Assembly: GCA_963924555.1 (NCBI GenBank)
Contig: OZ004593.1
Coordinates: forward strand, 5,452,480 to 5,516,479
Direction: 5' to 3'
From: Crambe crambe
Taxonomy: Eukaryota; Porifera; Demospongiae; Poecilosclerida; Crambeidae
DNA: 64,000 bases
The notes beneath the pieces were generated by a model. It searched no databases. It was not told the origin of the DNA and worked only from the letters and a program-made list of their open reading frames with translations. Positions 33,036 through 58,809 of this stretch are shown here, piece by piece. The position numbers and the translations under genes were made by a program. Positions within the stretch are counted from its first letter, which is position 1. Every line of letters begins with the position of its first letter.

Positions 33036-35489
33036 GTATTATACAAGTTCAAAGCAGCACTCATTTTGAGTATCTTCCTTCCTCTTATCTCATCTCAAGG
33101 TAGAGCTAATAACAGATGCACAGTAAATTCCTTCTCAGTGGCCAAGCTACAAGATTACTGTAATTCCCTCCTATTCCACAGTCTATCCTGAATGCTACAC
33201 ATTTCCCACTAGTACTTCAGTGAATGGATCATCTCCTACTGGAAACTGTTCTAATGTTTGTATGGATGGCACAATGACAACCTGTCTGCAACCAACCTCC
33301 AGTGTTCTGTTTGATGGGCGTGTCCCCACACTCACTGGACTAGATGGTGATATGTGGGCAAGTCAACTACTCACTATAAACACAACACGATCCTGGACTA
33401 ATGTCAACTTTGACTTCACTGATACACCAGGCTATGACAGAATAGAAAGAGTTGAGGTGGTGATGTTCAACTGTCCACAGTGGGGGATAGCATCTACTAC
33501 CATTACCCTCACAGGGACCACTGCTAGAGGTCAGCAATTCAACACTTTTGCTTCAACCTCTGTTAGTTCCCTCACCTCCTGTGAGTCTCTTGTGAGAGTG
33601 TGTTTATCAGGCCCTGTATCTCGACCACTAATTGGTCTACAATTCATCCTTAACCAGGACTCCGACTGGGTGCACCTTGCTGAGGTGACCTTCTATCCCA
33701 GAGGTTACACCTGTCCACCAGATATCATCTTCAATCCACCTACAACATCACCACCAGATAATACAATGTCACCAACTACACCTACAACACGATTGGATAC
33801 AATATCATCAGGTAATAATAACATGATAGTACCCTACTAAAATAATGTCATCCTTAATCCACCACCAGATACAGTGCCACCAACTACACCTACAACACGA
33901 TTGGATACAATATCATCAGGTAATAATAACATGTCATTAATCCACCACCACCAGATACAATACCACCAACCAGAGTTCTATCTACTGTGGGGGGGTTCCC
34001 GGACATGATGTGGCAATCACACACTTATGATGCCAGTGGATTAACCATAAAGAGATTGCTTTATATTCCAGCTACATGTTGCATGTATAGTAGTGTAATC
34101 TTAATCTCCTCGTATCAATTGCAGCTGCTAGCTAAAAGTCTATTTTTTCTGCAAAACATCAAGTGGGCATGGTTTGATATCCAAAAAGGGTGTGGTTAGG
34201 CAAAAGTGGGCATGGCCAAGGCAAAAATGTTCCTGCACACAAGCGCATGGATATTCTTCCCCCCTATTAAAAAATCCTAGATAGAACCCTGCCAACTACC
34301 ATGTCACCAACTATAATGTCACCAAGCCATTACCTCGAATAGTAAGTGCATGTGCATGTTAGTGTATGGTAGTTGTGGACCTTCACCTTCTGAATCATTA
34401 GCATGAGACAGCCCCATAATTCAGCTAGCCTAGCTATGTGTAGTACGAAATGCTATTTAAACTCTAGTTTAAATGAGGTTAACAGGAAGTGGGGCCACTT
34501 CCCAGCTGTGAGGTTGTGCGCGTGCGTGGTCTTGCAGGAGCACAGACTAGCGCTAGCAGATACAGTCTGAAGAGAAGAGGAACTTTTTTAATTTCCCACC
34601 CACCCACTCCACCCAGGTACTCGATCCTCCTCCAGTATACTATTCCTGGTACTCTCCACCCTTCCCCTTTTGGGGAGGGTGTGAAACTGCAAGGGCTAGG
34701 AACACTCCCCTCTCAATTCCTATAATTGGGGAGGATGTCTGGTCTGACATTCACTCCCCTAAATCTCCGGGGCTTACGAAAAGGTGTTTGGACAGACAGT
34801 CCACAGACGAGTGGATGTTCCCAGTCTAGGGGACAAATAGAGTGTAAAGGGCCCATCAGTTGGCCTGGGATGGGTCAGGCATCCCACCCACATGAGGGGA
34901 GTGGCCCTTGTAATTTTCCAACCTTTTCTCCATCTCGACATGAGTTACGGAGACTAGTTAGTTAATACAAAACCCGCACAATGTTAAATCTAAGTGCTGA
35001 TAAAAATGTGCAGGCTCACACCATGTGTTTAGCTATACATTTATACTAGCTATAATAGTAGCTGTACGTAGCTATAGCTACCAATTATGGTATTCCCTAT
35101 TGTTTCATGACTGTCAGTAACTCCTCATTATCACTTTATACTCTCTAGACTCTGTCCCTACCACAAGTTCCTCCCTATCTGAAGTCTGTGAATATTCCAG
35201 CACTCCAGCCATCTTGTCAGCTGTCATTGCAGTCATTGTCACAGCTCTACTGGCCACAGTCATCTTTGTGGTGGTGCAGGTTGTCATCTGCAAGTGTCAT
35301 CCAAAGTTCAGACCTGGAGGGACTGAGACAGTAGCCTCAGCAGGAGGGGAGGGGCAGGAGTATGAACAGGTCGATGTGGAAGGTGTGGCTGTGAAGGGTG
35401 GCAATGATGTTATGTACATGGAGGTTGGAGAGAAAGGAGGTAACACTATTGAACTCAAGGAGAACGAAGCATACGGCACTTACACTTAA
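33036..35489 (+). CDS. Family A single-pass membrane protein A2
   Basis: Exons: 33036-33099 (signal segment FKAALILSIFLPLISSQ), 33182-33811 (ectodomain and stalk), 35149-35489 (membrane segment and tail). The joins are phase 1 and give about 344 residues after the unidentified start exon; the signal exon has no in-frame ATG. The ectodomain has six or more Cys, NGS/NCS-type glycosylation sites and a beta-rich pattern ending DSDWVHLAEVTFY, reminiscent of galactose-binding-like folds (inference). The stalk is Thr/Pro-rich. The tail has YEQV, YMEV and YGTY; here the second site is VMYMEV, which fits the ITIM pattern. The intron after 33811 holds a duplicated stalk-plus-donor segment (to about 33920) and an unrelated insert at 34470-34970. 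No function is known; a surface receptor or adhesion role is inferred. Confidence 0.72.
34470..34970. other. GC-richer insert in intron 2 of A2, nature unknown
   Basis: Absent from A3, A5 and A6 at the same place. It contains several inverted motifs (CCCTTCCCCTTTT/GGGGAGGG, CACTCCCC/GGGGAGTG). Short open frames are present but have no recognisable content. Probably a transposon fragment. Confidence 0.45.
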
Positions 35490-36021
35490 CAATCAGTACT
35501 TTCAAGGTAGATACGTAACTCAGTGCATACTAGCTAACTGTTATTTCCACACCTGTGACCACTTCATAGTTAAGTAGCTAGCTAGTTTATTGTAGTCATG
35601 ATAAAGCTGTAGCCAGCTATTTTTAATCAAGTTTGAAGTTCTTGTTATTAGCTATTTTTGTCTCAAACAATTTGTGACAAGAAATTGCCAATGTTTCAAC
35701 CAATTTTTTCTTTGGTCCTCTTCAGGCTAGAGTATTGGTTATGGATGAATAATGACAACTGAGAGTTTTAATGCTTGTTTAGGTAAAAGTTTGAAGTTAT
35801 CTATGCCTATATGGTAGAAACCGTAACGGTTTTGATATGATAGCTACTTGAAGGCTACACACATGAGGCCATTCACGTAATGAATGTTATCTGCCTTTAC
35901 CTCATGCATGCTAATGGATTCTTGTTACTATATCAACACACATCATCATTCTCCAATAGTTAGCTAGCTATAACATTTTTGGATTGCAAATAGCTAGCTA
36001 ACTAGACTGAGCTGAGGAGAC
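35490..36021. other. Spacer between A2 and B1
   Basis: No gene. Nearly the same sequence occurs at 54708-55300 between A6 and B2 (e.g. CATGAGGCCATTCA, CTCCAATAGTTAGC), marking the large block duplication. Confidence 0.7.
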
Positions 36022-37259
36022 ATGAGACTAACTAGTTATAGTGGATGGATAATTCCCAAGGTGAGTTTCACAGGTTATTATGGTCATAGCTATATAGGCC
36101 TTAATGATCGTGTCCATAGGAAACTGGAGCTTTCTTATTTTTCCTAAGTATCTTCATGCCTTTTGTATCAACTCAAGGTATAGATACTAGCTAGCTATAT
36201 TTGGTAGTTAGCTAGCTATATGTATTCCAGCAGCTATTTCAATCATAGAAGTAGAAAGGAACAAGCATGGGTACACCTTGCTGAGGTGACCTTCTATGGT
36301 GGAAATCCTAACTGTCCACCAAATGTTGATATCCTCAATCAAACTATAACACCACCACCAGATGCAACATCAGGAACTACAATGCTACCAACTACAATTT
36401 CATCAACTACAACTGCCATCTCAAATGGTAAGGGTGCCATTTTGAAGTGGTGCATGCTTGAATGAAAATAGCTACACTTAGCTAGACTCCTTGTGTATTT
36501 ATAAGACAGAACTCAGGATCCATGATTATCTTGATATTGATGCAATCTATGTATACAGGATTTGATACAAGAGGCTCTACTCCAAAACTAAGGCAAAACG
36601 TTGAAGCTGCCATCTCCATCTCAGTGGTGTTAACGCTCTTCATTCTCATCATTGTCCTTGTCGTTATCATCCTACTCCTAGTCCATCTCTATCGGCAAAA
36701 ATATCCCATTCGAAATGGTCAGTGTGATACCGCAAAACCCCGAACTCATTCTAGAGAATATGAGCACAAAAAAGGGCATGAAGAGGTGGTAGCAGGACAT
36801 TTGACCAGCAAGGAATTTACAAGACCCACTGCTCAAACAGGAGGGAAGCACTCATCGATCAACGTAGATAAGGATGAATCAAGTCAACCGTACAGCCGCC
36901 TTAAGCATAACGTGCCACACAAGGCTGAGATGATACGTCCAATACCTGCGGCTTATTCCCAAATCAGTTTAATACCAGAAGAAGATGAGTTTGGGTATGT
37001 TGTAGACCACAAGAAAAAGGATTTACTTACTGAGAAGACTCAGCCAGTAGAGCCAGCACCAAGCGTGGAAGTCAAGAAAGACCAAGCAAGCTGCAAAATG
37101 ATTAGTGAACGAACGATGACTGGAGTGTATGCCAAGGTGGACAAAAAGGGGAAGAGCAAGACTATGCCTATGCTCGACGACCCGTTTGATGATCCTTTTG
37201 GTCCTCCTCCAGTGCCTCAGAAATCAGATCTACTCTTGGAAGATCTCAAAAGACAATAG
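36022..37259 (+). CDS. Family B membrane protein B1, ectodomain mostly deleted
   Basis: Exons: 36022-36060 (ATG; MRLTSYSGWIIPK), 36120-36177 (hydrophobic ETGAFLFFLSIFMPFVSTQ), 36266-36427 (last part of the ectodomain, from WVHLAEVTFYGG, and stalk), 36559-37259 (membrane segment and a ~190-residue tail). Against B2, most of the ectodomain exon is gone. The intron now meets the middle of the exon at AACAAG/CATGGG; use of this weak acceptor keeps the phase and gives ~319 residues. The membrane segment is ISISVVLTLFILIIVLVVII. The tail has YSRL, YSQISLI, GVYAKV, a DPFDDPFG pair and PPPVPQ; DPF motifs are known AP-2 appendage ligands and PxxP is SH3-type, so endocytic adaptor binding is possible (inference). 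It could equally be a recent pseudogene. Confidence 0.6.
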
Positions 37260-38368
37260 CAGTAACTAATAAAGGAAAAGAGCATAGCCATAGTGAATGC
37301 TGTAGCTATTGTATTGAAAATTTTATTTTCTTGATCTAGTTAGTGAAATTATGATTTAGTGAAAGTTTATCATAACTAGCTAGTTACTTTGAAGTTTGAA
37401 TAGCTAATAGCTGTAGTTGATGTAGATATCATTAAAACTGAAAGAAGTTCTTAGCTACATATGTAGTTATTTACATTTGAACAACCCTGCAGTAATATAA
37501 TAGCAATTCTATCATACTAGCTAAGTCTAAATTGTATAGTTAGGTATGTATGCCATGCATGCTGCTCTAATATGAGTGAATTCCAGGTAGTACTGTTCCA
37601 GCCAGTTCGTTGAAACTGAACACATGTTCTATAGCGTCATAGCCAACGGCAACCATGCTCTTGCCAGCATACTTGATGAGTATTAAAGGCCACAGTATTA
37701 TAGCTAGCCTATTCAAGACTCATTGTTAACACTATTCACTACACATTGCGTGTTGAGTCAATGACTAATGAATAGCTACCTACTGTACATTAGGAATGCT
37801 TACACGGACTTCCTTTTTGCAATGGATCTGTCCAGAATTCAGGGTCAACATTATAATTATCGCCCAACTTAAATCCCTACACTTCACTCCCCCTTCAGCA
37901 ATAAGTGAGTCAAGTAACCCCTTACTCGTACCCATCACCAAACTCAAGAATTGCAGCAATAATGATTATTACAAAACTACTATTCCTACTTCACTCCTAG
38001 GCAATATATATAGGCGTGGTTATTGAAAATTTAGGAGGGCTATAGGAGTGATAGGAATGCAGCCAAATTTTATGGTTATCCCTACTTCATTTTTTATTTT
38101 GAAGAAATTTTTTGCGCTCATGTTGAATAAGTGTGTATTTTAGTAGTTAGCTATTATAAGTTTCCAAAATTTTCTACCACAGACATACGTATAGTGAATC
38201 CAACTGATTGCTTAACCCTTTGCTGCACATGTGCAGCGGGGCAAACATGTAGTGGTATACAGTAACTGGGACCCTACCTTTCCAAGACCAAAAGAATTAT
38301 AGATCACACCCAAGGGCCCAATAGATATGTCCATGCTTAGCATTATTATTGCTATTTGAATACATTAG
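37260..38368. other. Spacer between B1 and A3
   Basis: No gene. It matches 56945-58018. A decayed relative of a foldback right arm (ATCCCTACTTCATTTTTTAT, GAAGAAATTTTTTGCGCTCA) lies at about 38070-38125. From 38140 begins the unit shared with A1 and A7. Confidence 0.65.
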
Positions 38369-39718
38369 GGGTACAATTTCAAAGCAGCACTCATTTTGAG
38401 TGTCTTCCTTCCTCTTGTCTCATCTCAAGGTATGCACTTCAAGTAGCTAGTTATGATAACAGATACACAATACTTTAAGTTAGCTACAAAATACCATGAT
38501 GTAAATCTCTCCTCTTCCAATAGTCTATCCTGAACGCTACACATTTCTCACTGGTACATCAGTGAATGGATCATCTCCTACTGGAAACTGTTCTAATGGT
38601 ACAACAACAACCTGTTCCCGACCTAAATCCAGTGTTCTGTTTGATGGGCGTGTCCCCATACTCACTGGACTAGATGGTGACATGTGGGCAAGTCAACTAC
38701 TCACTATAAACACAGTGGAATCACTGATTAATGTCAACTTTGACTTCACTGATACACCAGGCTATGTTGGGATACAGAGATTCGAGGTGGTGATGTTCAA
38801 CTGTCCACAGTTGGGGATAGCTTCTACTACTATCTCCCTCACAGGGGCCACTGCTAGAGGTCAGGTCTTCAACTCTTTTGCTTCAACCTCTGTTAGTTCC
38901 CTCACCTCCTGTGAGTCTCTTGTGAGAGTGTGTTTATCAGCCCCCGTATCTCGACCACTAATTGGTCTACAATTCACCCTTGACCAGGACTCTGACTGGG
39001 TGCACCTTGCTGAGGTGACCTTCTATGCCAGAGGTTCCACCTGTCCACCAAATGTCATCCTAACACCACCACCTACAACACCACCACCAGATACTACAAT
39101 ATCACCAACTATAACTGCCAGCAACATCACCTCAAATAGTAAGTGTGGAGAGGCTTCAGCCTCATTACTTCATTGTGACCATAGCCTATGACCCTATGTC
39201 TGCAGCTATGTGAGAACAAACTGTGCAGGTGTGCATGCTGCTGTGCATGCAGCTGCCTTGTTCGCTTCATTTATAATGTTAGCTATGGCTGTAGCTCTGT
39301 ATATGGTATTCCCTATTTTAAAATGTATTTACGTATGAGGACTGTCATTAGCTCTTATAGTCATTTATACTCTGTAGACTTAGTCCCTACCATAAGTTCT
39401 CCCCTGTCTGAAGTCTGTGACTGTTCCAGCACTCCGGCCATCTTGTCAGCTGTCGTTGCAGTTATTATCACAGCTCTACTGGCCACTATCATCTTTATGG
39501 TGGTGCAGGTCGTCATCTGCAAGTGCCATCCAAAGTTCAGACCTGGAGGGACTGAAACAGGAGCCTCAGCAGGAGGGGAGGGGCAGGAGTATGAGCAGGT
39601 TGATGTGGAAGGTGTAGCTGTGAGGGGTGGCAATGATGCTAGGTACATGGAGGTTGGAGAGCAAGGAGGTATCACCATTGAACTCAAGGAGAATGAAGCA
39701 TATGGCACTTACACTTAG
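38369..39718 (+). CDS. Family A single-pass membrane protein A3
   Basis: Exons 38369-38429, 38524-39138 (donor A/GTAAGT) and 39378-39718 join in phase 1 to about 338 residues after the missing start exon. The signal exon (FKAALILSVFLPLVSSQ) follows an AG acceptor, with an in-frame TAG just upstream, so translation must begin in an earlier exon not identified here. The ectodomain is full length (FDFTDTPGYVGIQRFEVVMF ... CESLVRVCLS ... DSDWVHLAEVTFY), with a short Thr/Pro stalk. The membrane segment is VVAVIITALLATIIFMVVQV, followed by a KCHPKFRPGG stop-transfer. The tail keeps YEQV, YMEV and the C-terminal YGTYT. It is closest to the broken copies A1 and A7, so it may be the surviving member of that subgroup. 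The ligand is unknown. Confidence 0.75.
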
Positions 39719-39914
39719 CTAATAATTAATAGCTTATCTTGTGTGTCAATTTTTACAAGTTGGATATTGATAGCTAGCTAGATCTGTAGCTAACAAGACT
39801 ATATGGCTACGTAGATAAATTACTATTAGCTTATGCACACACACAATACTTGTTCTATGATATGTAACTAACTAACAAGATCATGTCAGTGTCGAATGCT
39901 CAAACAGATGAAGA

Positions 39915-40280
39915 CACATCTCTTAACAAATGCACACAGATAGCTAGGTATTTAAATTATAGATCACACCATCCTGTACATGTAAAAAGATGGGTCATTA
40001 AAAGCTTGTATGATAGAGCCATGAGGGTTACCACACATGATACTAAGGAACGAATGCATCTTAGGAAAGTTTTTATAAAGAATGGTTACCCAGAGGAATT
40101 TCTATCTGCAACTTTGAATCACATAGCTAGTGCCATAACCTAGAGATGATAATAGTAATAGGGAAAAAAGACAAAAACAAGTAGTAATTCCATATGTTAA
40201 AGGCCTTAGTGAAGACATTAGAAGGGTTTGTAGTAGTTTGATATTAGGGTTAATTGTTTTTAATGAATTTAAGATCTAAA
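39915..40280 (+). pseudogene. Penelope-like or related reverse-transcriptase relic
   Basis: Translation shows HHPVHVKRWVIKSLYDRA and HLRKVFIKNGYP (to 40143, stop). After a frameshift come VIPYVKGLSEDIRRVC and a final VF. This order is typical of the segment between the reverse transcriptase and the GIY-YIG endonuclease in Penelope-like elements. Only this segment is present, with several stops. It marks the left edge of an insertion relative to the A1 unit. Confidence 0.6.
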
Positions 40281-40329
40281 CATTCTAAGGTTAAGGATAA
40301 GTAGGATTGTTGCTGCACAGGAGGAACAT

Positions 40330-40622
40330 GTATGTATAGCATATTCCTGTATTCCATTGTTTCAGCATCCACTTCTTCCTGAGCATGAGAAAAACAAATT
40401 ATAGCTATAATAGCTACCTATGCATGTATGTACTTACGTATACGTATTGTTTCACCATTCTGAACTGGAATCAAGGCATCGTTTTGGCAGAGCAATGGTG
40501 ACTGAAATCCACTAATATTCGGAAATTGCATCTTCAAGATATGCTGAGCAAGGATGATATGTTCATCACAGATCCATTTCCCACCCAGCACTATATTTTT
40601 CATCTTCTTTGGATCTTTCTCT
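40330..40622 (-). pseudogene. Exons of a transposon-type gene with a C48/Ulp1-like segment
   Basis: A minus-strand exon 40620 to 40438 has a clear acceptor (TATTATTGTAG) and donor (ATAC/GTAAGTA). It encodes WICDEHIILAQHILKMQFP...GFQSPLL, which resembles the WLxDxHIxAAQxLLKxQFP stretch of Ulp1-like proteins linked to invertebrate transposons (family assignment by memory, moderate). A further acceptor-exon (GAAGAAGTGGATGCTGAAAC) starts at 40378, and a paralogous one lies near 41390. The phases of neighbouring pieces do not join, so the gene is incomplete. Confidence 0.5.
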
Positions 40623-42924: not shown

Positions 42925-43147
42925 TTGTACAAGTTCAAAGCAGCACTCATTTTGAGTATCTTCCTTCCTCTTATCTCAAGGTAGAGCTAATAACACATGC
43001 ATAGTACTAACAGGACCATACAAATTCCTTCTCAGTGGCCAAGCTGCAAGATTTTATTGTAATTCCCTCCCAGTCTATCCTGAATGCTACACATTTCCCA
43101 CTAGTACATCAGTGAATGGATCATCTCCTACTGGAAACTGTTCTAAG
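42925..43147 (+). pseudogene. Family A copy A4, 5' remnant
   Basis: The signal exon (to 42980) has lost 5 nt of the TCTCATCTCAAG end, shifting the frame. The ectodomain exon starts at 43074 and stops after about 73 nt (…GGAAACTGTTCTAA), where unrelated sequence begins. No downstream A-type exons belong to it. Confidence 0.8.
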
Positions 43148-43842
43148 TAGTCTGGCTAACACAGGCTCTTTGGGCCAAAAGATCAGGTTAAACTGTTTTT
43201 AGTTGTGATTGATGAGCAGAGTACCTACCATGTAGGAAATGTGTATGGTTTCACTGTAATCTTGTCTCTAGGGAAAATCCGGGGGGGGGGGGGGGGGAGT
43301 CTAGGGAAAACCCCTAACTATCTACATGCAGTATATAGGTTTGTCCATGTATCAAAGAAAACAACTTCCTCCACCTTGGCCTCCTTAAACCATTGGCTCA
43401 TGAGTCATGATGCTACCCCTTAGATCTTACTTTTTTTCATGTGTTTACCCCCTAATAGGGCAAGTGAGTCAACTGCCCATCCTAACCACATTAGTAGGGG
43501 AAATAATTACCCTAATGAAGCTAGTTGGCAACCACCTATTTAGGGACTGAAATGAAGAGGTTAAGAGATTAGCTACTGTTAGTGGGTAATTCTAGTCTAC
43601 TAGCTGTGATTATCTGGACATAGCACTGCACTTGATGATTCTTCGATCAAACAAAGCATTAACCTTGGAAATTGTCAAGCTGCTATTCTGAGCAGTAGTA
43701 GTGGACGAGCTATTAATAACAGTCACCATTATTATGACTTGTGCTAATTGGATTGATTGTTTACATACATACATATGTGTCTAAAAGAGAACTTTTACAC
43801 TGACATTATAATTGCATTGTTATGTTGTTGATTATATTGTAG
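43148..43842. other. Gene-free 5' flank of A5
   Basis: A poly-G tract at about 43280-43298; otherwise no feature recognised until the signal exon. Its last part (GACATTATAATTG...) matches the flank of A6 at 50280. Confidence 0.55.
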
Positions 43843-43848: not shown

Positions 43849-46007
43849 ATGTTCAAGAGTATACTCTTTTTGAGTATCTTTCTTCTTCTTCCTCTCGTCT
43901 CATCTCAAGGTATGTCACTCTGTGAGCACGTACTTATTTCCCCAGGCTGAGTCCCTTACCTGGACTTGCTGATGACTTCACTAGTCTGGCTTGAGTCCGG
44001 CCTTGGCTTTTACTAGTAAAGGCTTTGCTGTAAAACTTGATGAAATTTTAGTGGAAATGGATGACTGGTGTGTGCAGTCATGTGATTATCATGATGATTA
44101 GCATGGTGATTAGCACACATAGTGTGGTGAGTAGTGTTACCAGGTCCTAAGTTATTCCACACTGGGGAGTTGGTGGCTAACATTGTGTATAGTGTGAAAT
44201 TTTGAATAAAATTTTCGTGGTTTCAAAGTGTGAATAGGCAATTAGCTATTATGCTATTCTTGTATGCTCTGAAATTCATATTATTATGCTCATGTGCAAT
44301 GTCATTATGCTGCACTGGTATTATTGACCTTTGACCTCAATAATCTGACCCTGGGTTTGTGATAATTGTGTTCATGGTTTATGAATCAGCTGATACTGAA
44401 AGAGTTTTCTTTTTCAATGCTAAAAAGACAGTTTACTGATAAACTGCTCACTGCAAGACTATGTAGAATTGAGTGTCATGCTAAGCATATTCAAAAATTA
44501 TTATTTTTTTGATGATTATGCTGAGTGCTGATTATCCTTTCCTTGTACAACAATGTATGCTCAAAATTATGCCGGCATAATGTGCCAAGGCAAGGCCCAA
44601 GTGTGAACCACATAATTCCGTATTATTTCGTGGTGATCATAGAGTTGGCTTGCATTCTTTAAAAAAATTTTCTCCCAACATTCTGTTTAGTCTATCCTGA
44701 ACGCTACACATTTTTCACTGGTATATCAGTAAATGGATCATCTCCTACTGGAAACTGTTCTAATATTAATGTGACTGACACAAGGATAACCTGTCTACAA
44801 CCAACCTCCAGTGTTCTGTTTGATGGAAGTGTCCCCACAATCACTGGACTAGATGGTGACATGTGGGCAAGTCAACTACTCACTATAAACACAACAAAAT
44901 CCTTGACTTTTGTCATCTTTGACTTCACTGATACACCAGGCTATGTTGGGATACAGAGAGTTGAGGTGGTGATGTTCAACTGTCCACAGTGGGGGATAGC
45001 ATCTACTACCATTGTTCTCTCAGGGGCCACTGCTAGAGAGCAACCCTTCTTTAATGTTGCTTCAACCTCTGTTAATTCCCTCACCTCCTGTGAGTCTCTT
45101 GTGAGAGTGTGTTTATCAGCCTTCATTTCTCAGCCAGTAATTGCTCTACAATTCGTCCTTGACCAGGACTCCGACTGGGTGCACCTTGCTGAGGTGACCT
45201 TCTATCCCAGAGGTTCTACCTGTTCACCAAACATCATCCTAACACCACCACCTACAACATCACCACCAGATACAATGCCACCAACTACAACACCACCACC
45301 AGATACAATGCCACCAACTACAACACCACCACCAGATACAATGCCACCAACTACAACGTCACCAACTATGACTGTGAATAGTAAGTGCATGTATGTTAGT
45401 GTATGATGGTAGTTGTGGACCTTCACCTTCTGAATCACTAGGGTGAAGCTACGTAGCCTCACTAGTACAAAATTTGAGGGATGAAAAAACCATGCAGACT
45501 GCTTTTATTTTCTACATAGCTGTCTTGCTTGATATATTACACTTCACTTATAATGTTACACTAGCTATGTAGCTGTATGGCTATGGCTGGTATTTCCTAT
45601 TCAGTTTGTACGTATGAAGACTGTCACTAGCTCCTAATTAATGATTATCACTTTATACTGTAGACTCTGTCCCTACTACAAGTTCCTCCCTATCTGATGT
45701 CTGTCCCCTGACTCCTTCCTGTTCCATTACTCCAGCCATCTTGTCAGCTATCATTGCAGTTATTGTCACAGCTCTACTGGCCACAGTCATCTTTGTGGTG
45801 GTGCAGGTTGTCATCTGCAAGTTCCATCCAAAGTTCAGACCTGGAGGGAGAGCCTCAGCAGGAGGGGAGGGGCAGGAGTATGAGCAGGTCAATGTGGAAG
45901 GTGTAGCTGTGAGGGGTGGCAATGATGCTATGTACATGGAGGTTGGAGAGCAAAGAGGTAACACCATTGAACTCAAGGAGAATGAAGCATATGGCACTTA
46001 CACTTAG
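43849..46007 (+). CDS. Family A single-pass membrane protein A5 (clearest copy)
   Basis: Exons 43849-43909, 44691-45380 and 45664-46007 give a complete 364-residue frame with phase-1 introns. The first exon has its own ATG and is a classical signal peptide (MFKSILFLSIFLLLP then LVSSQ). The ectodomain runs from VYPERYTFF to FYPRGSTC, with 6-7 Cys. The stalk contains three exact 11-residue repeats PPPDTMPPTTT, a mucin-like spacer. The membrane segment is VIVTALLATVIFVVVQVVIC and the tail has YEQV, AMYMEV and YGTYT. Copies A1-A3 and A7 have AAT or AAG in place of this ATG. The exon is also preceded by an AG acceptor, so an upstream exon is possible here too. A type I plasma-membrane protein is a safe reading; ligand and signalling are unknown. 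Confidence 0.82.
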
Positions 46008-46249: not shown

Positions 46250-46577
46250 CATATTTTTTGGTTTTCGGTATTTTCATTCCTGCAGGCGCTATTCATAGAT
46301 GTGCTATCTTTTTCGAATTCTCTCCTTTTCCAATAGCATTATCCTATGATCAGTTGTCATCACACAGCCCTGCTGGCCACAGTTATCTTTTTACTGGTGC
46401 AGATTGCTATCTGCAAATGCTATACAAAGTCCAGTCCTGGAGGAACTGGGAAAAGAGGACGGGAGAGGGAGGGGGAGGAGGAGGTGTACATGAAGAGATG
46501 GGTGCATGGGGATGAGGGAAGTGTGGTTGTGATTATTGGTAGTAATAATCCCACGTATATGGAAATTGGGGATTGAG
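46250..46577 (+). pseudogene. TM2 exon copy downstream of A5
   Basis: After an acceptor (CTTTTCCAATAG) the frame gives ALLATVIFLLVQIAICKC, SSPGG, an Arg/Glu-rich stretch and a final PTYMEIGD with stop at 46576. It parallels the main membrane/tail exon and keeps the tyrosine motif, so it may be an alternative last exon; an altered start of the exon (GATCAGTTG...CACACAG) argues for decay. Confidence 0.5.
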
Positions 46578-48598
46578 GAGATACGATTGAACTAAGTGAG
46601 AATAAGGCCTTTCATGGAAAAATAATGTTTTGGACTATTGATCATTAATTTTGCAAGCTAGCTACCATTCAGTTTCAATAGCTGAGCCTAGGCCACTAGC
46701 TCATGTTTAGCTATAATTTTAAGGCTTCTTTTTTATTAGCATAGCTACATGACAGGAAACAGGATTCCCTTGTAACAATTAATTTTGCTCCATAAATCTC
46801 TCTAGCTCTTTAGCTAGAGCCCTCAGTCACTATCCCTATGGGGATCTAGGAATGGAGGCCCCCTATCACTTTGACCATAGATATCTATGCTTTGACACAG
46901 GAAACAATCTGCATGTTTTTATTTTTGGGTGTGGCTTATGGTTTATGGCTTATGTGTGTGCTGCAACAAGTATCTGTGACGTGCATAACTTCTTCAAGAT
47001 GCCAACCGTTCATGAGGTAAGCTAAGTCTACAAGTCAAGATTATTAACTTACTAGGATGTTGGGCTGACATTCTCTAGCGGAACTAGAAAAGCACTGCAT
47101 TGGGGGGTGGTTTAGTCAATGTATTGCCATGGACATGGTGCTTAATATTGTGAGTATTTGAGTTAGCTGCCACTTAGTGAGGTGCAAAGCAAGCACACTC
47201 ATTTTTTTACGTTAGTGGGGAAAAACTGACCAGTTATTAAAGCACAGTAGCTAGACTAGCTAGTTGGACTAGCTGGCATCAGTATCAGTTCTTTTGATCA
47301 GATCTGGTAGCTATATAGCAAGAAGATATTTGGATTGATCGCTGCTTTAAAATGCTTGCATGTTCAGGCTCTTACCTGGGGGGCCTGGGATGCCAAATGC
47401 TTCACTCTGACTCTGAGAGCTAATACTTTGTTTATCATGTTGTAGCTGATGTGTAGGTACATTATCTGTGTGTATTTTAATGGTTCAATTTATACATTGT
47501 ATTAGCATAAGTGGTTTCTTTCTTCTACAGAGTCACGTATATAATTGTGGGGGATCTCTCACAAGAAACAATTATGTGCACTGAAAGAGCTCAATCAAAT
47601 CTTCATATGGGCCTCACTATTCTACGGAACGGAATGGAACTGAATGGAATGGAACGGAACAGAAAGGTTCCGGGACTCCATTCATGGAACAGAATTTTCA
47701 CTGCGCACGCGTATGCGCATGTGCAGTATGAATTTAAAAGTTTGGGGTCTCTAGGATGGTGAAAGTGTGTAATGCACTGTCATAGCTGATCTTCTCTTTC
47801 TCTCTGAGATAAACAAATACAGTAGCTGTAGTTGGAGTAGCTGGCATCTCAATGAGATTTTTTGATTGATTGCTGCCTTAAAATGCTCAGCCTCATGACC
47901 AGGCTCTTCTCCGTGAAGCCTGGGCATGGCCCTCCCCCTAAATCTTTCATATAAACTTTGTGTATATTTTTAATGATTCAATTAAACATATACAGCTTTA
48001 AAAACAACCCATTTAGTTATTTGAGTTGTAATTTGCAACTCAGATAACCTAAAAATGAGTTGTTTTTACATGTTTGTTTTTATAGTGTGCATAACCCTTT
48101 AGCTATTTCTATACTGAGCTACATATAATTGGGGAGGATCTCTCACTAGGAACAACCATTACTTGAGACTGTGCAAGGACAATTCTTCATTTCTGGGAAG
48201 AATTGTTGAAACTCAAACAAACCCCTCCAGTATTTTAACAAGAATTCCAAATTTTGGTGGCACAAGAGACCAACTAGAATCATACACAAAGAGTCAGTCA
48301 CAAAGCCAAAGATAACAGACTCAATTGCACACACAATGATTATAGGGATTACTGTAATTGGGGAAATTTTCAGTTATAGGCACAACAGAGACTGACTAGA
48401 ATTGAGTCAGTCACAAAAACAACCACAAGGCCACAATTACAATAACTGGCCACAAGAATGAATTGCACACACATTGCAATATTCTAACTATATATATTTT
48501 TAATGATTACAGTGGAACCTTGGATACACACATGGGACCCATCCTTTTCTCCTTTGTAAAGAGCCTCTTTTGGAGGTTATTTTGTATAGAGTGTATGT
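46578..48598. other. Duplicated spacers without genes
   Basis: 46930-47580 is a further copy of the 3036-3890 spacer. 47615-47700 is an imperfect GGAAT/GGAAC pentamer run. 48120-48590 repeats parts of the 42180-42600 segment, including a pogo-like end (ACAGTGGAACC) at about 48518. No exon found. Confidence 0.6.
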
Positions 48599-50329: not shown

Positions 50330-53300
50330 ATGTTCAAGAGTGTACTCTTTTTGAGTATCTTTCTTCTTCCTCTTGTCTCATCTCAAGGTATGTCACTGTG
50401 TGAGCACATACTTATTTCCTCAGGCTGAGTCCTTTACCTGGACTTGCTGATGACTTCACTAGTCTGGCTTGAGTCCAGCCTTGGCTTTTACTAGTCAGGC
50501 TTCACTGTAAAGTTTGATATTAATTCTGAAATTTTAGTGGAAATAGATGACTGGTGTGTGCAGTCATGTGATTATCATGATGATTAGCGCTAGCTAGCAC
50601 ACATAGTGTGGTGAGTAGTGTTACCAGGTCCCATGTAATAGGTTACTTATTCCACACTGGGGAGTTGGCTGAAGAATTGACCCTAACATTGTATGCATAC
50701 TGTATAGTGCGAAATTTGGAATAAATTTTTTGTGGTTTCAAAGTGTGAATAGGCAGGCCTTGGACACATTATGCTCAAAAAAAAAAAAAGTTACCGTATA
50801 GCCGGAAATATTGACGGGAATTATATTATACGATTTCCTCATAAAAATACCAATGACGGTATTTAATTTGACGGAATCTGAAATCGCGCAAATAAATAAT
50901 GCGCGTGCATGCGAGCTGTGTACAGCTAGCTAGCTAGCTATAATATAGCTATCATCAATTTAGCATGAGTTCGCCATCACGTCTACAAAAGCGTATGGAT
51001 TCCAATTCTTGGGGAAGGACTAGAGTGTAGGCGATTGTTGGACACATCTCTCAAAGAATTTCAGCCGCTTGTTCTCTCTTTCTTTATAATGATGGATGAC
51101 TCTTCAATTTGTTGCGCTATCACAAGTTCAATGTGCTACTCCTCCAGGGAGGCCTATATGTTTCTTTGACTTTCTCTCCAGCAGTGGTGTACAATAAATC
51201 GTATCGCAAACTTAATTAAACTGCGTGACTTTTCGACGGTTTTATTTTTGGCGATTAAATTTTTTTAAGGGTGCTTGCAATAGCAACGCCCGTGCTTCTA
51301 TTTCTAGAGTTTGAAAAGGTTGTCCTGCACTTATACTGCAGCTAGTTGGATAATTTTATAGTCTTATCTTCAGATAGGATCAATCTACACACTATTAATA
51401 ATTATAAAGAGGGGGTGTGGCATGGTGTGGCTAAAATACCTTAAACCATAAAATTTTGATTACTTCGTATATCTCAGGAACAACTGGTTCGAATCAGCTC
51501 ATTTTTTGCATGCAGCTTTCATAAGTTAAGGTGATAAACATAACAGTTAGTTTTTTTCTATATCTAGCTTAGACTTCTCAAATCACAAGGTCGGGCATGA
51601 AAAAATAAGAATAAACTAAAAATTAATATTGAAATTCAGAAAAACTCAATGTTATGTTGTAGTATACAAATAGAAGGTGTCTGAGAGAAAAAATTATCCA
51701 AGTAAGTCCAACAGTTCCTGAGAATCACAGGCATTAGCAAAGTCGTTCATAGCACCCACGAAAATTAGGCAATATTTAAAGTTTTTGGTGTGTGTGGTAG
51801 TGATATGGTACTGTATAGCTAGGATATTTTGCTTATTGCTGCTGTATACAGCTCTGGAGTTATACTCCCATAGCAACCATGTGTGGGCGGAGGGTTGCAA
51901 GCACCCTTAAACCGCCAAAGCATCAAATTAAATCTTTGTCAATATTTCTGGCTATACAGTATTATGCTACTGCGGTTTTAGGGAATCTTGAAATGCTGGT
52001 CGCCATCGTCTGTGAGCTACGCATATGTGTAGTGTCAGATTTTGGCTTATTGCACATGAGCAATGACATTTAGGCATAGATACGTACTATGGTTTAGGCA
52101 TGCCCAGTACACGGTTGTTGCTTGACAGTGTTTCAAGATTCTCACTTGATGCCTCGGCACATAAGACTTGATATGGACCAAGCATTTATTTTCTAGACAT
52201 TTCTACTGATGAAATTCAGTTTTTTTGCAGGTAGATACAGAAGCTATACAGAAGACTAAAGATTCATGTTATTATTGTATTAAAACTATCAATGATTCTG
52301 TCAATAACTTTCTATGCTAGCTAGCAATAGAGACTTTGCTCTTCCTGCAGTCATGGCTTTGTGGCTCTCTTGCTGCTACCTCAAATGAACTGTGTAATAA
52401 CTGGCTTACTTTGTAGCCTCTGCTCTCACGATTTGAGGCTTTCTTGTAGGTTCTCTTGCTATTTTCAGAAACTTTTTACCCTCTCTGCTCTCACTGTTCA
52501 AAGCCTTGCTGTCTTTCAAACGATTGTATCATAGATTCTACTCTCTTTTTTTGCTGTTCATGTTATTTGTCTTGTCTCCTGTGCTTTCTCAGATGATCGT
52601 TAACTTGCCTGCTGTCTCTTGCAGCCATTAAACCCTAAAGGTCATGTGCATGCGTAGATATGGACAAACATACCACCATCATAGTCGCCTCCAGCACTGC
52701 ACCCCGGCACTTTGGCGCCCAGGCAAAAATCATGTAATTAATGCTCATGTATTATGCTCATGTGTACTTAGATTTCAGGATGGTTGTCTGTAAGGAATGA
52801 GAAATAGGTAGTGGCTTACAAGGACCTAAGAAACCTGATCCTTTCATGTCCTATACAATCCATGCAGTTGTAGAATAAATTTTTCCCACCTATTCCCCCC
52901 ACACCTTCGTGACAACCAACCTGCAATGTTATTATGCTCATGTACACTGGTATTATTGACCTTTAACCTCAGTAATCTGACCCTGGGTTTGTGGTAATTG
53001 TGTTCATGGCTTATGAATCAGCTGATACTGAAATTTTTTTTCCACTTCTAAAAGGACTACTGAGATAAACAAGCTAGCTCACTGCAAGATCATGGAAAAT
53101 AAATATATGATTGCTCAATTATGCTAGCCTTATAAATCAATGTTAAAATTATGCTGGCATAATGTGCCAGTGTGAACCCTTGTTTTTGTGTGTCCAAGTT
53201 TTGCCTGCTAGCTATGCAGTATTATTTCGTGGTGATCAGTTTAGCTTGCATTCTTTTAAAAAAATTTTTTTTCAGTCTCTTTAGTCTATCCTGAATGCTA

Positions 53301-54707
53301 CACATTCACCACTGGTACATCAGTGAATAGATCAACTCCTACTGGATACTGTTCTAATGTTAGTATGGCTGGCACAATGACGACCTGTCTGCAACCAACC
53401 TCCAGTGTTCTGTTTGATGGGCGTGTCCCCACACTCACTGGACTAGATGGTGACATGTGGGCAAGTCAACTACTCACTATACAAACAACACAATCCTTGA
53501 CTGTTGTCATCTTTGACTTCACTGATACACCAGGCTATAACAGAATAGAGAGAGTTGAGGTGGTGATGTTCAACTGTCCACAGTGGGGGATAGCATCTAC
53601 TATCATTACCCTCACAGGGGCCACTGCTAGAGGTCAGTCCTTCAACACTTTTGATTCAACCTCTATTAGTTCTCTCACTTCCTGTGAGTCTCTTGTGAGA
53701 GTGTGTTTATCAGCCTTCATTTCTCAACCACTAATTGGTCTACAATTCTCCCTCAACCGGGACTCTGACTGGGTGCACCTTGCTGAGGTGACCTTCTATG
53801 CCAGAGGTTACACCTGTCCACCAAATATCATCCTTAATTCACCATCACCTACAACAACACCAGATACAAAACCATCAAATACAATGTCACCAACTATACC
53901 TACAACACTATTGGATCCAATATCATCAGGTAATAATAACATGATAATACCCATTAAAATAATGTCATCCTCAATCCACCACCACCAGATACAATACCAC
54001 CAACTACCATGTCACCAATGACAATGTCACCAACTACAACTGCCATCACCTTGAATAGTAAGCGCATGATGTGCATATTAGTGTATGATGGTAGTTGTGG
54101 ACCTTAACCTTCTGAATCATTAGCATGAGACAGCCCCATAATTCAGTTAGTCTATGTTTAGCTAGCTATGTGTAGTACAAAATCTGAGGGACGATATAAA
54201 TGTGCAGGCTCATACCATGTATTTAACTATACATAATATTATAGCTGTCTTGCTTGATATCACACACTTCATTTATAGTAGCTGTAGCTATAGCTACCAA
54301 TTATTCTTGAAATTGTGTTTCATGACTGTCAGTAGCTCTTAGTCATAATCACTTTATACTCTGTAGACTCTGTCTCTACCACAAGTTCTTCCTTGTCTGA
54401 AGTAAGTGAATGTTCCAGCACTCCAGCCATCTTATCAGCTGTCATTGCAGTCATTGTCACAGCTCTACTGGCCACAGTCATCTTCGTGGTGGTACAGGTT
54501 GTGATCTGCAAGTGTCATCCAAAGTTTAGACCTGGAGGGACTAAGACAGGAACCTCAGCAGAAGGGGAAGGGCAGGAATATGAGCAGGTCGATGTGGAAG
54601 GTGTTGCTGTGAGGGGTGGCAATGAAGCTACGTATATGGAGGTTGGAGAGCAAGGAGGTAACACCATTGAACTCAAGGAAAATCAAGCATACGGCACTTA
54701 CACTTAA
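50330..54707 (+). CDS. Family A single-pass membrane protein A6
   Basis: Exons 50330-50387 (MFKSVLFLSIFLLPLVSSQ), 53285-53929 and 54367-54707 join in phase 1 to about 347 residues. Intron 1 is 2.9 kb against 0.78 kb in A5. Its two ends align with the A5 intron, while about 2.1 kb in the middle (including the nested elements at 50793-51960) is extra. The ectodomain is full length with DSDWVHLAEVTFY. The stalk is Thr/Pro-rich and ends at a GTAATA donor. A second donor-like AATA/GTAAGC at about 54058 lies beyond a stop and is probably unused. The tail has YEQV, ATYMEV and YGTYT. Assigning the signal exon to this copy rests on order and intron similarity. Confidence 0.75.
50793..51960. mobile_element. 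Outer TIR element in intron 1 of A6
   Basis: The left end ACCGTATAGCCGGAAATATT, GAC matches the complement of the right end (ACTGTATAGCCAGAAATATT, GAC). It is non-coding, with internal GC-poor sequence, and is split by the element at 51269. The target duplication is unclear; superfamily not assigned. Confidence 0.65.
51269..51906. mobile_element. Inner element with TTAA duplication
   Basis: GGGTGCTTGCAATAGCAACG at the left and the inverse of GGGTGCTTGCAACCCTCCGC at the right, with TTAA directly outside both ends (51265-51268, 51907-51910). TTAA duplications are typical of piggyBac and Kolobok elements. At 638 bp and without a real ORF it is non-autonomous. Confidence 0.8.
51961..52920. other. 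Extra intron sequence in A6, nothing recognised
   Basis: Contains pyrimidine-rich runs (CTCTCTTGCTGCTACC, TTTGCTCTTCCTGCAG) but no supported exon. It is absent from the A5 intron. Confidence 0.5.
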
Positions 54708-55300
54708 CGATCAGTACTTTCAAGGTTGCACATTTGATAACTCAGAGCATACTAACTGTTATTTCCACACCAGTGACCTGTGACCATGCACATGTCACTT
54801 CATAGTTAAGTAGCTAGCTAACTAGATAGTTTATTGTATAGTCATTATAAAAGTGTGTGCAGGAACTATAGCTAGCTATAGTCGGTTATTTTTATTTATC
54901 AAGTTTGAAGTTCTTTTTGTCTCAAACAACTTGTATTTTTGACAAGAAATTTCAACCAATTTTTCTTTGGTCCTCTTCAAGGCTAGAATGTTAGCTAATA
55001 CATGTTATAATAACAACAAGTGACAACTGAAGAGAGTTTTAATGCTTGTTTAGGTAAAAGTTTGAAGTTGTCTATGCCTATGGTAGAAACTGTAACAGTT
55101 TTGATATGACAGCTACTTGAAGGCTACACACATGAGGCCATTCATGTAATGAACATTATCTGCTTTTACCTCGTGTTAATGGCTTCTTGTTACTATATCA
55201 ACACCTTTATACACATCATCATTCTCCAATAGTTAGCTAGCTATAACATTTTTGGATTGCAAGTAGCTAACTAGACTGAGCCGAGGAACTATCTATAGAC

Positions 55301-56944
55301 ATGAGACTAACTAGTTATAGTGGATGGGTAATTCCCAAGGTGAGTTTCACAGGTTATTATGTAGCCCTTAATAACTGATTGATTGTGTCCATAGGAAACT
55401 GGAGCTTTCTTATTTTTCCTGAGTATCTTCATGCCTTTCGTATCAACTCAAGGTATAGATACTAGCTAGCTATATTAATTTTGGTAGTGCTAGCTATATG
55501 TATTCCAGCAGCTATTTCAATCATAGGAGCAAGCATGTAAGATAATGATTGATGCAACTATGTAGCTATAGCCATTCTTGTTTCTGATAATAATTATTTG
55601 CTAGCTAATATAGAACTAATAATATCATTTCACAGTCTATCCTGAACTCTACACATTTCTCACTAGTACATCAGTGAATGGATCATCTCCTATTGGAAGC
55701 TGTTCTAATGTTAGTATGGATGACACAATGACAACCAGTCTGCAACCAACCTCCAGTGTTCTGTTTGATGGACGTGTCCCCACACTCACTGGACTAGATG
55801 GTAATATGTGGGGAAGTCAACTACTCACTATAAACACTACGCAATCCTCAACCTGTGAGTCTCTTGTGAGAGTGTGTTTATCAGGCCCCATATCTCAACC
55901 AGTAATTCGTCTACGATTCGACCTTGACTATGAGGACTCTGACTGGGTGCACCTTGCTGAGGTGACATTCTATGGTGGAAATCCTAACTGTTCACCAAAT
56001 GCCATCCTCAATCAAACTATGATAACACCACCACCAGATACAACATCACCAACTACAATGCTACCAACTACAATTTCACTAACTACAACTGCCATCTTGA
56101 ATGGTAAGGGTGCCATTTTGAAGTGGTGTATGCTTGAATGAAAATACAGTACCAACACATTAGCTAGATTCCTTGTGTATTTAGCTATAAGACAGAATTC
56201 AGGATTCATGATTATATCTTGATATTGATGCAATCTATGTATACAGGATTTGATACAAGAAGCTCTACTCCAAAACTAAGGCAAAGAGCTACCATCTCCA
56301 TCTCAGTGGTGTTAACGCTCTTCATTCTCATCATTGTCCTTGTCGTTATCATCCTACTCCTAGTCCATCTCTATCAGCAAAAATATTCCATTCGAAATGA
56401 TCAGTGTGATACCACAAAACACCAAACTCATAGAGAATACGATCATAAAAAAGGGCATGAAGAGGTGGTAGCAGAAAATTTGACCGGCAAGGAATTTACA
56501 AGATCCACTGCTCAAACAGGAGGGAAGCACTCATCGGTCGACGTAGATAAGGATGAATCAAATCAACTGTACAGCCGCCTTAAGCATAACGTGCCACACA
56601 AGGCTGAGATGATATGTCCAATACCTGCGGCTTATTCCCTAATCAGTTTAATACCAGAAGAAGATGAGTTTGGGTATGTTGTAGACCACAAGAAAAAGGA
56701 TTTACCTACTGAGAAGACTCAGCCAGTACAACCAGCACCAAGTGTGGAAGTCAAGAAAGACCAAGCAAGCCGCAAAATGATTAGTGAACGAACGATGACT
56801 GGAGTGTATGCCAAGGTGGACAAAAAGGGGAAGAGCAAGAGTACGCCTATGCTTGACGACCCATTTGATGATCCGTTTGGTCCTCCTCCAGTGCCTCAGA
56901 AATCAGCTCTACTCTTGGAAGATCTCAAAAGACAACAGCAGTAA
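55301..56944 (+). CDS. Family B membrane protein B2 with shortened ectodomain
   Basis: Exons 55301-55339 (ATG; MRLTSYSGWVIPK), 55395-55452 (hydrophobic, FLFFLSIFMPFVSTQ), 55636-56103 (ectodomain and stalk) and 56247-56944 (membrane and tail) give about 420 residues. The first join is phase 0, the rest phase 1. The ectodomain matches family A, but about 60 residues (the FDFTDTPGY...LTS core) are missing by an exact in-frame deletion between TTQSS and TCESL. The tail is ~95% like B1: YSRLKHNVPHK, YSLISLIPEEDEFGYVV, GVYAKV, DPFDDPFG, PPPVPQK. Strong conservation of the tail beside a reduced ectodomain suggests the intracellular part is what selection keeps (inference). Confidence 0.75.
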
Positions 56945-58018
56945 CTAATAAAGGAAAAGAGCATAGCCATAGTGAATGCTGTAGCTATTGTATTGAAAAT
57001 CTTATTTTCTTGATCTAGTTAGTGAAATTATGATTTAGTGAAAGTTTATCATAACTAGCTAGTTACTTTTGAAGTTTGAATAGCTAATAGCTGTAGTTGA
57101 TGTAGATATCATTAAAACTGAAAGAAGTTCTTAGCTACATATGTAGTTATTTACATTTGAACAACCCTGCAGTAATATTGATAAACATGCAAATAGCAAT
57201 TCTATCATACTAGCGATGATAAATTGTATAGCTAGGTATGTATGCCATGCATGCTGCTCTAATGAGAGTGAATTCCAGGTAGTACTGTTCCAGCCAGTTC
57301 GTTGAAACTGAACACATGTTCAGATGTGAATGCTAGCGTCATAGCCAACGGCAACCATGCTCTTGCCAGCATACTTGTTGAGTATTAAAGGCCACAGTAT
57401 TATAGCTAGACTCATTGTTAACACTATTCACTACACATTGCATGTTGAGTTAATGACTAATGAATAGCTGCCTACTGTACATTAGGAATGCTTACACGGA
57501 CTTCCTTTTTGCAATGTATCTGTCCGGAATTCAGGGTCAACATTATAATTATCGCCCAACTTAAATCCCTACTCTTCACTCCCCCTTCAGCAATAAGTGA
57601 GTTAAGTAACCCCTTACCTGTACCCATCACCAAACTCAAGAATCACAGCAATAATATTATTACAAAACTACTATTCCTACTTCACTCTTAGGCGATAATT
57701 ATATATAGGCGTGGTTATTGAAATTTAGGAGGGCTATAGGAGTGATAGGAATGCAGCTAAATTTTATGGCTATCCCTACTTCACTTTTTATTTAGAAGAC
57801 ATTTTTTTGCGCTCATGTTGAATAAGTGTGTATTTTAGTAGTTGTAGCTATTACAAGTTTTCAAAATTTTTCTACCACAGACATACGTATACTAGTGAAT
57901 CCAACCGATTGCTTAACCCTTTGCTGCACATGTGCAGCGGGGCTATACCTTTCCAAATTATAGATCATACCCCAGGGCCCACTAGATACGTCCATGCTTT
58001 ATTATTTGAACAAATTAG
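56945..58018. other. Spacer between B2 and A7
   Basis: Duplicate of 37260-38368; no gene. It includes the same decayed foldback arm at about 57765-57815. Confidence 0.65.
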
Positions 58019-58809
58019 GGGTACAATTTCAAAGCAGCACTCATTTTGAGTGTCTTCATTCCTCTTATCTCATCTCAAGGTATGCACTTCAAGTAGCTAG
58101 CTATGATAACAGATACGCTTTACCATGATGTAGCTAAATCTCTCCTCTTCCAGTAGCCTATCCTGAACGCTACACATTTCTCACTGGTACTTCAGTGAAT
58201 GGATCATCTCCTACTGGAAACTGTTCTAGACTGCACACAATGACAACCTGTTTTCAACCGCCAAACTCTGGTGTTCTGTTTGATGGGTATGTCCCCACAC
58301 TCACTGGACTAGATGGTGACATGTGGGCAAGTCAACTACGTACTCACTATAAACACAACACAATCCTTGACTAATGTCATCTTTGACTTCACTTATACAC
58401 CAGGCTATGTTGGGATACAGAGAGTCGAGGTCACCTAACAGAGTAGGTTTGTTAAAATAACAATTTCGTTTTTTGCAGTGATACTCTGTAGACTCTGTCT
58501 CTACCACAAGTTCTCCCCTGTCTGAAGTCTGTGAATGTTCCATTACTCCAGTCATCTTGTCAGCTGTCATTGCAGTCATTGTCACAGCTCTACTGGCCAC
58601 AGTCATCTTTGTGGTGGTGCAGGTCATTATCTGCAAGTGCCATCCAAACAGGAGCCTCAGCAGGAGGGGAGGGGCAGGAGTATGAGCAGGTCGATGTGGA
58701 AGGTGTAGCTGTGAGGGGTGGCAATGATGCTAGGTACATGGAGGTTGGATAGCAAGGAGGTATCACCATTGAACTCAAGGAGAATGAAGCATATGGCACT
58801 TACACTTAA
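58019..58809 (+). pseudogene. Family A copy A7 (multiply broken)
   Basis: The signal exon 58019-58079 and the start of the ectodomain exon (58157) are intact. Then a 4-nt insertion creates CTACGTACTC at about 58340. The ectodomain stops at about 58431 (GTCGAGGTCACC), with its second half and the stalk deleted. The tail exon (58492-) has lost 23 nt after CATCCAAA and carries TAG in place of GAG in the GGTTGGATAG context. Closest to A1 and A3. Confidence 0.85.

Follow-up and report, generated by a model that had tools for sequence, protein, structure and literature searches.

How does a cluster of receptor genes come to carry one extracellular domain on several different membrane and cytoplasmic tails? 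The question is raised by a stretch of 64,000 nucleotides from the sponge Crambe crambe (positions 5452480-5516479, forward strand, of contig OZ004593.1, here C16, in a genome of 143.1 Mb on 119 contigs, whose receptor kinases, SH2 domains and introns are those of an animal), hereafter called the window. An original prediction, made from the letters of the window, had described seven copies of a receptor family A and two of a family B, with a shared ectodomain, different tails, phase-1 exon borders and recent pseudogenes. Comparison with the rest of the genome supports a wider picture, in which a common exon, encoding an ectodomain of about 180 residues plus a stalk, occurs with four or more kinds of membrane and cytoplasmic module (A, B, C and K). 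It also supports decoupled histories of ectodomain and tail, the outer part having apparently moved between tail types as a unit.

One ectodomain and at least four kinds of tail

All seven A and both B copies were located in the window by tblastn. Ectodomain matches start at window positions 1079 (A1), 33190 (A2), 38532 (A3), 44699 (A5), 53293 (A6), 55644 (B2) and 58165 (A7); A4 matches over 22 amino acids only (43082), and B1 is a remnant of the last 23 amino acids (36256). A1 lies at the left edge of the window, outside the part in which the cluster had first been placed. The best non-self ectodomain match has 85% identity over 178 amino acids (E 1.4e-97), which is beyond chance. Tail A follows A1, A2, A3, A5, A6 and A7, and tail B was found at 36615 and 56297. 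The phase-1 borders described for A2, A3, A5, A6, B1 and B2 hold throughout: every border that could be placed is phase 1, with AG at the ectodomain acceptors (A2, A3, A4, A5, A6, B2 and A7; seven of seven placed) and the tail acceptors (A2, A3, A5, A6, B1 and B2; six of six), and GT at the ectodomain donors of the latter six genes (six of six).

A genome search with the 178-amino-acid ectodomain of A2 gave 152 matches, fragments included, of which 150 are considered here. They are clustered at C16:5.43-6.07 Mb (which contains the window), C21:0.88-0.95 Mb, C16:2.94-3.00 Mb, C13:2.88-2.92 Mb, C12:1.26-1.29 Mb and C20:5.90 Mb, with others at single places. The window holds a small part of a very large family of receptors, whose members cluster mostly on a single contig. 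Genome-wide, tail A gave 94 matches, tail B 5, tail C 86 (many of them repeats inside one tail) and the kinase of class K 139 (mostly other kinases). For a tally of tails, 75 places of tail A, 5 of tail B, 34 of tail C and 26 of the kinase were retained; second halves of split matches, degenerate second tails, short kinase fragments and unrelated kinases were left out. The 26 kinase places are longer matches of 52-100% identity, all on C16 and 24 of them at 5.42-6.05 Mb.

Tails were assigned by position only, as the next feature on the same strand within 6 kb 3' of the ectodomain. By this rule 54 of 125 full-length ectodomains are followed by tail A, 31 by C, 12 by K, 3 by B, 17 by another ectodomain and 8 by none of these. 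Among 25 partial ectodomains the next feature is tail A in 8, another ectodomain in 7, tail C in 3, tail B in 2, K in 1 and none in 4. Kinase domains lie 2.0-2.3 kb from an ectodomain start on the same strand at, for example, 5728545/5730804, 5737493/5739450 and 5742238/5744310 (ectodomain/kinase). On C21, another ectodomain lies 0.7-2 kb beyond each of nine full-length ones (76-81% identity); this downstream ectodomain has 64-69% identity in seven of the nine cases and precedes a divergent tail A, so that these are likely genes with tandem ectodomains. There is also a second ectodomain family, about one third identical to the first, at C16:5978-6068 kb and in the loci L047 and L054, where it carries tail A or a second kinase type that is 57-61% identical to the first. 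Two inverted blocks were also seen on C16, at 5515158-5527226 (from window position 62679; 6.6 kb at 99.985% identity) and 5562651-5584757 (5.5 kb at 100%); they may reflect very recent duplication, a mobile element or an assembly effect.

The tails differ in architecture. Tail A has one membrane span and a short tail with two Yxx[V] motifs 18 residues apart, and tail B has three Yxx[ILV] motifs. In class C the ectodomain, membrane span and tail all lie in one exon, and two copies of the tail carry eight and nine Yxx[ILV] motifs, of which four and six, respectively, are LYAQV. Tail K consists of a span, a juxtamembrane region and a kinase domain; in one copy the juxtamembrane region is about 350 residues long and contains 18 tyrosines, 7 of them in Yxx[ILV]. 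Across the eight tails examined there are 2-9 Yxx[ILV] motifs per tail. The K genes L029 and L047 match PF07714 (E 2.4e-81 and 1.3e-82), and their translations contain VAVK, HRDLATRN and DFG. With an intact kinase domain and a single membrane span, the latter read by eye, class K is a receptor tyrosine kinase. The closest PDB chains to the kinase of one copy are DDR2 and DDR1 (259 bits), followed by TrkB (230 bits). Tail C aligns weakly with the K juxtamembrane region (E 2e-4, in lysine-rich sequence) and has a 13-residue end motif in common with tail B (E 0.007), for neither of which do we claim common descent; a comparison of tails B and K found no kinship. The two swappable tails of the original prediction stand as different tails on a common ectodomain, while their number was too small and one further kind is a tyrosine kinase. 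The common ectodomain of A and B had been proposed from a window in which B retains only remnants (the end of B1 and the deleted B2), and it is an intact B gene outside the window, L053, that bears it out.

Separate histories of ectodomain and tail

In a DNA tree of 32 core ectodomains, the tail labels take 10 changes and shuffled labels 9.7 (200 of 200 shufflings as low), so that the classes are as scattered as chance would make them. A clade of the three K ectodomains is rejected (p-AU, approximately unbiased test, 1.5e-7), as is one of the four C ectodomains (p 0.018). Despite this scatter of the K ectodomains, the kinase domains are close: with that of the first K gene as reference, those of the other two reach 90 and 92% identity. 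A protein tree was built from 61 of the 125 full-length ectodomains; here label A takes 19 changes against 20.2 shuffled (165 of 500 as low), and the starred sister pairs of mixed class are A5542301 with K5742238 (99/82), A5586881 with C5797083 (99/83) and C2956041 with A2994397 (100/90).

In the median A-B, A-C or A-K pair, DNA homology sets in with the AG of the splice acceptor and runs out within the stalk. A2, for example, is 89.3, 86.8 and 87.8% identical to one K, one C and one B gene over the ectodomain exon and stalk; the same comparisons found no match in the tails, and the sole other upstream match was with the C gene, in the leader. The phylogeny, and homology that breaks off at the splice acceptor, support the module swapping that had been inferred from the window.

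Upstream introns were compared in 25 genes (300 pairs) over the 120 nt 5' of the ectodomain exon, with the 99% level of shuffled sequence as the cut-off. No match rose above it in 166 of the pairs (81 within a class and 85 across classes), for which the median identity is 42-45%. The median synonymous divergence (dS) of the ectodomains in these pairs is about 0.14-0.15 and is alike whether the introns match (0.136-0.139) or not (0.141-0.154). With silent divergence near 0.15 and upstream introns that are often unrelated, the family would allow exon-limited exchange to be measured unusually cleanly. The reverse arrangement is found in L054, in which the ectodomain is 33% identical to that of A2 and tail A is 93.6% identical over 172 nt. 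Since homology is limited to the ectodomain in the former genes and L054 is the reverse case, both ends of the molecule appear to recombine.

Plain tandem duplication under purifying selection, with each class arising once and the likeness of ectodomains reflecting constraint on an essential domain, would agree with the many whole-gene and segmental duplications (for example, 4.6 kb at 98.1% and 4.4 kb at 91.0% identity) and with introns that drift faster than silent sites. It fits poorly with ectodomains of such low silent divergence that have no clear homology in the 166 upstream introns, with kinases that are nearly identical while their ectodomains do not form one clade, with the disagreement in the core set between tail class and ectodomain clade, and with an ectodomain that lacks strong constraint. 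We reject this explanation as very improbable.

A second explanation is alternative splicing: a given ectodomain exon could be joined to one or another of several downstream tail exons, and A and B (or A and K) would then be isoforms from the same multi-tail genes. The phase-1 borders would permit it, because any ectodomain donor fits any tail acceptor in frame. The B1 tail exon, whose own ectodomain is a remnant, lies about 1.1 kb 3' of the end of the A2 tail, and degenerate second tail A exons lie about 600 bp behind several tail As. We nevertheless judge alternative splicing unlikely, since intact B, C and K units each have their own nearby ectodomain, class C has ectodomain and tail in one exon, and the mixed phylogeny would be left unexplained.

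The single exon of class C also bears on how ectodomain exchange between genes may have occurred. Phase-1 exon shuffling had been proposed as the mechanism; the modular phase-1 exons are there, but in class C no intron separates ectodomain from tail, so that shuffling through introns cannot be the sole route. From class C, gene conversion or crossing-over inside the exon is likely.

Several observations weigh against free exchange of the ectodomain. In the 61-row tree the labels taken together are partly clustered (26 changes against 32.4 shuffled, 0 of 200 as low), as is C (6 against 7.6, 18 of 500), and the second ectodomains of C21 form one clade; in the 32-row core tree label A leans to clustering (7 against 8.6, 78 of 500 as low). 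In C-K pairs the start of the match lies a median of 11-12 nt farther 5', and in a quarter of A-A pairs the match extends at least 100 nt into the intron. Even matching introns are only 66-72% identical; introns thus change faster than silent sites, and some of those without a match may be homologues that have diverged. The pairwise homoplasy index (PHI) test for recombination inside the ectodomain gave 80 of 1000 permutations as low.

Selection, signalling and a possible recognition role

The ratio of nonsynonymous to synonymous divergence (dN/dS), which had been proposed for comparison between domains, separates the outside of the molecule from the inside. It is 0.82 in the ectodomain (mean dS 0.161; 35 copies, 31 from C16 and 4 from C21), 0.26 in tail A (dS 0.159; 17 of 21 copies, four being dropped for stops) and 0.28 in the kinase (dS 0.174; three copies), the ectodomains of the same three K genes again having 0.82. 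In 125 of 595 pairs of ectodomains dN exceeds dS, and 8 of 28 short windows have dN/dS above 1, the strongest lying near query residues 13-29, 61-77 and 139-155. Invariant positions number 46 in the core set and 13 across 28 diverse ectodomains, the latter including four cysteines. The pattern fits a fixed scaffold with changing loops; a dN/dS of about 0.8 is equally expected under relaxed constraint.

The profile search that had been suggested for the ectodomain did not place it in a known family: there was no match to Pfam with 28 members and none to PDB, and single-sequence searches of Pfam and PDB gave nothing useful. An AlphaFold model from five window copies is poor (predicted local distance difference test, pLDDT, 43.1; predicted template modelling score, pTM, 0.45) and beta-rich, with eight strands. 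Foldseek with this model listed viral jelly rolls, the carbohydrate-binding modules CBM6, CBM4 and CBM22, and other folds, a list that is only a hint because of the pLDDT of 43. By eye the sequence has a jelly-roll-like pattern with LAEVTFY as the last strand, and a lectin-like role is our guess. A discoidin identity was dropped, as PF00754 (F5/F8 type C, discoidin) matched none of the 28 ectodomains (two matches occur elsewhere in the genome) and hhalign found no match to one DDR1 discoidin sequence.

We consider it reasonably probable, from sequence comparisons, that these genes form a germline-diversified, phosphotyrosine-signalling recognition family resembling the paired receptors of vertebrates. 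The sequences support an ectodomain exon that passes between tail classes, by gene conversion or unequal recombination, with the phase-1 borders preserving the frame; the same tail is also found on the second ectodomain family, with which about one third of residues are in common. Ligand binding may cluster receptors with the same or similar ectodomains. Class K, whose kinase motifs are intact, could then phosphorylate its own tyrosine-rich juxtamembrane region and also the Yxx[ILV] tails of the kinase-less A, B and C receptors. The phosphorylated tails would be read by SH2 proteins, which are numerous in the genome (135 matches), and the classes would yield different or opposing outputs to one ligand, as vertebrate paired receptors do. 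Dense tandem arrays of SH2 matches, often in pairs 0.4-0.8 kb apart, were seen at C5:1417826-1522148, C9:1.49-1.61 Mb and C12:1.75-1.84 Mb; they are possible candidates for readers of the receptor tails.

That one binding domain is kept in register on several outputs by ectodomain exchange is supported at the level of the genes. A recognition role, in allo-recognition or the sensing of microbes or symbionts, would best fit the copy number, turnover and fast ectodomain. The fullest version, a self/non-self or immune-type system in which receptor kinases share interchangeable ectodomains with kinase-less docking receptors, exon-limited gene conversion holds these in register, receptors for one ligand phosphorylate one another's tails and an expanded set of SH2 readers belongs to the system, is in our opinion doubtful. 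If true, it would be a kinase-based counterpart of paired receptors in an early-branching animal, and would show the principle of one domain with several outputs arising with an unrelated ectodomain and receptor kinases. Which molecules serve recognition in sponges and other animals of early-branching lineages has long been an open question, and the genes described here are a concrete candidate family: large, clustered, fast outside and conserved inside, with kinases and tyrosine-motif tails on one ectodomain.

Part of the evidence is at odds with the proposed reading. A canonical immunoreceptor tyrosine-based activation motif (ITAM; YxxI/L-x6-12-YxxI/L) was sought and found in none of the eight tails, so an identity as ITAM receptors was dropped, and a motif like the corresponding inhibitory motif (ITIM) is present in only two of the eight; opposing signs of signalling are accordingly without demonstration. 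Both B copies and three A copies of the window are damaged, five of its seven leader exons lack an ATG (A1, A2, A3, A4 and A7 have AAT or AAG there), and the joins of leader, ectodomain and tail are predicted ones. A developmental, adhesion or chemical-sensing family, expanded and relaxed in this lineage, with no part in self/non-self or microbe recognition, is a possible if less probable explanation. The closest kinases belong to the DDR family, which is matrix-sensing in vertebrates, and the dN/dS of 0.82 would also fit relaxed constraint; on the other side, recognition loci are typified by features seen here: large copy number, pseudogenes, near-identical segmental duplications, and an ectodomain that changes fast while tail A and the kinase are conserved.

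Excerpts of PMC5701461 and PMC5112662 describe, for Siglec-11/-16 and the relatives of CEACAM1, ectodomains that are nearly identical and sit on different cytoplasmic tails, with exchange limited to the ectodomain. The present family is like such paired receptors in having highly similar ectodomains on distinct tails (87-89% DNA identity between the A2 exon and the K, C and B genes, with no match found in the tails) and in that its ectodomain has been homogenised without the remainder of the gene, as judged by borders, introns and trees. It is unlike them in that its ectodomain, with about 150 matches, is not recognised as Ig or as any Pfam family, and in having at least four tails, one with a tyrosine kinase, and no ITAM in eight tails. 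By design the nearest invertebrate parallel appears to be the fester co-receptor (FcoR) family of Botryllus, which has tyrosine motifs in its tails, among them the core Y-x-x-I/L/V (PMC12065747, in part); the two were compared through Pfam only, and no sequence relation is claimed. FcoR and Hydractinia Alr, as far as the available parts of their descriptions go, are likewise clustered invertebrate receptor families with tyrosine-motif tails. Unlike the present genes, the FcoRs are Ig/sushi proteins with ITIM or hemITAM, and the same parts of PMC12065747 mention no receptor kinase. Class K resembles DDR1/DDR2 in kinase domain, single span and long tyrosine-rich juxtamembrane region, and differs in that the family ectodomain has no F5/F8 type C match and most members of the family have no kinase. 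Listings of the open-licence literature contain no description of this receptor family that we could find. Excerpts of PMC8662651 mention a sponge-specific Src family and no such receptor family, and the words 'kinase' and 'receptor' are absent from the portion of the main text of PMC5450542 that was covered.

Gene copies and other features of the window

All receptor exons listed here for the window lie on the forward strand. Two families of leader exon precede the ectodomains, both with a phase-1 end. Leader 1, of the type MFKSVLFLSIFLLPLVSSQ/G, has an ATG in 14 of 15 matches; leader 2, of the type xFKAALILSIFLPLISSQ/G, has none. Because the ATG-less leader also lies 5' of kinase genes, its start codon may sit in a further upstream exon. 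Seven leader exons were matched in the window, with ATG only at 43849 (A5) and 50330 (nearest A6).

Four A copies had been called intact. A5 and A6 are open from the ATG of the leader to the stop of the tail, while A2 and A3 have open ectodomains and tails and a leader exon that lacks ATG. A2, the source of the genome query, has its leader-2 exon at 33045-33099 (KFKAALILSIFLPLISSQ/G, phase-1 donor), by homology; a leader candidate at 32948-33034 was dropped in its favour. The A2 ectodomain and mucin-like stalk exon (33182-33811) runs from phase 1 to phase 1, and the tail A exon (35149-35489, phase-1 acceptor) encodes a membrane span and a tail with YEQV, YMEV and YGTY. A3 consists of a leader-2 exon (38375-38429), an open ectodomain exon (38524-39138, phase 1 to phase 1) and a tail A exon with a phase-1 acceptor (39378-39718). 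In A5 the leader-1 exon (43849-43909) encodes the signal peptide MFKSILFLSIFLLLPLVSSQ/G and has a phase-1 donor; an open ectodomain exon (44691-45380, phase 1 to phase 1) and a tail A exon (45664-46007, phase-1 acceptor) follow. A leader-1 exon with ATG lies at 50330-50387, and its closest 3' ectodomain is that of A6, 2.9 kb away; this leader, the A6 ectodomain exon (53285-53929, open, phase 1 to phase 1) and the A6 tail A exon (54367-54707, phase-1 acceptor) are open when joined.

The pseudogenes that had been noted are present. A1 (912-2198) has a leader-2 type exon from 912, an ectodomain at about 1041-1630 that is frame-shifted near its 5' end, and tail A at 1920-2198. A4 is a fragment (42931-43150) of a leader-2 exon and a 24-codon ectodomain stub, and A7 (58025-58806) has a leader-2 exon, an ectodomain broken after 71 amino acids and a frame-shifted tail A. 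Of B1 there remain the last 23 or so residues of the ectodomain with the stalk (36256-36427, phase-1 donor AATG/GTAAGG) and the tail B exon (36559-37259, phase-1 acceptor), with a membrane span, three Yxx[ILV] motifs and the C-terminal PPPVPQKSDLLLEDL. The B2 ectodomain exon (55636-56103) has an internal in-frame deletion (about residues 70-105) and a frame that is still open; its tail B exon (56247-56944) has a phase-1 acceptor. Degenerate second tail A exons, several with stops, were seen behind A5 (46364-46612, 46% identical, one in-frame stop), from 59160 on and behind several other tail As; they may be relics or alternative tails.

Apart from the receptors, the window contains an open frame of 2394 amino acids at 16016-23200. 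Read by eye, it opens with repeats, has helicase-like motifs and closes with two OTU-like stretches, and it resembles an element of Helitron type. At 7508-8660 there is a minisatellite with units of about 62 nt, several frames of which are open on either strand, and tandem repeats of about 230 nt with 64-100% identity occupy 30572-32275 and 60027-61016.

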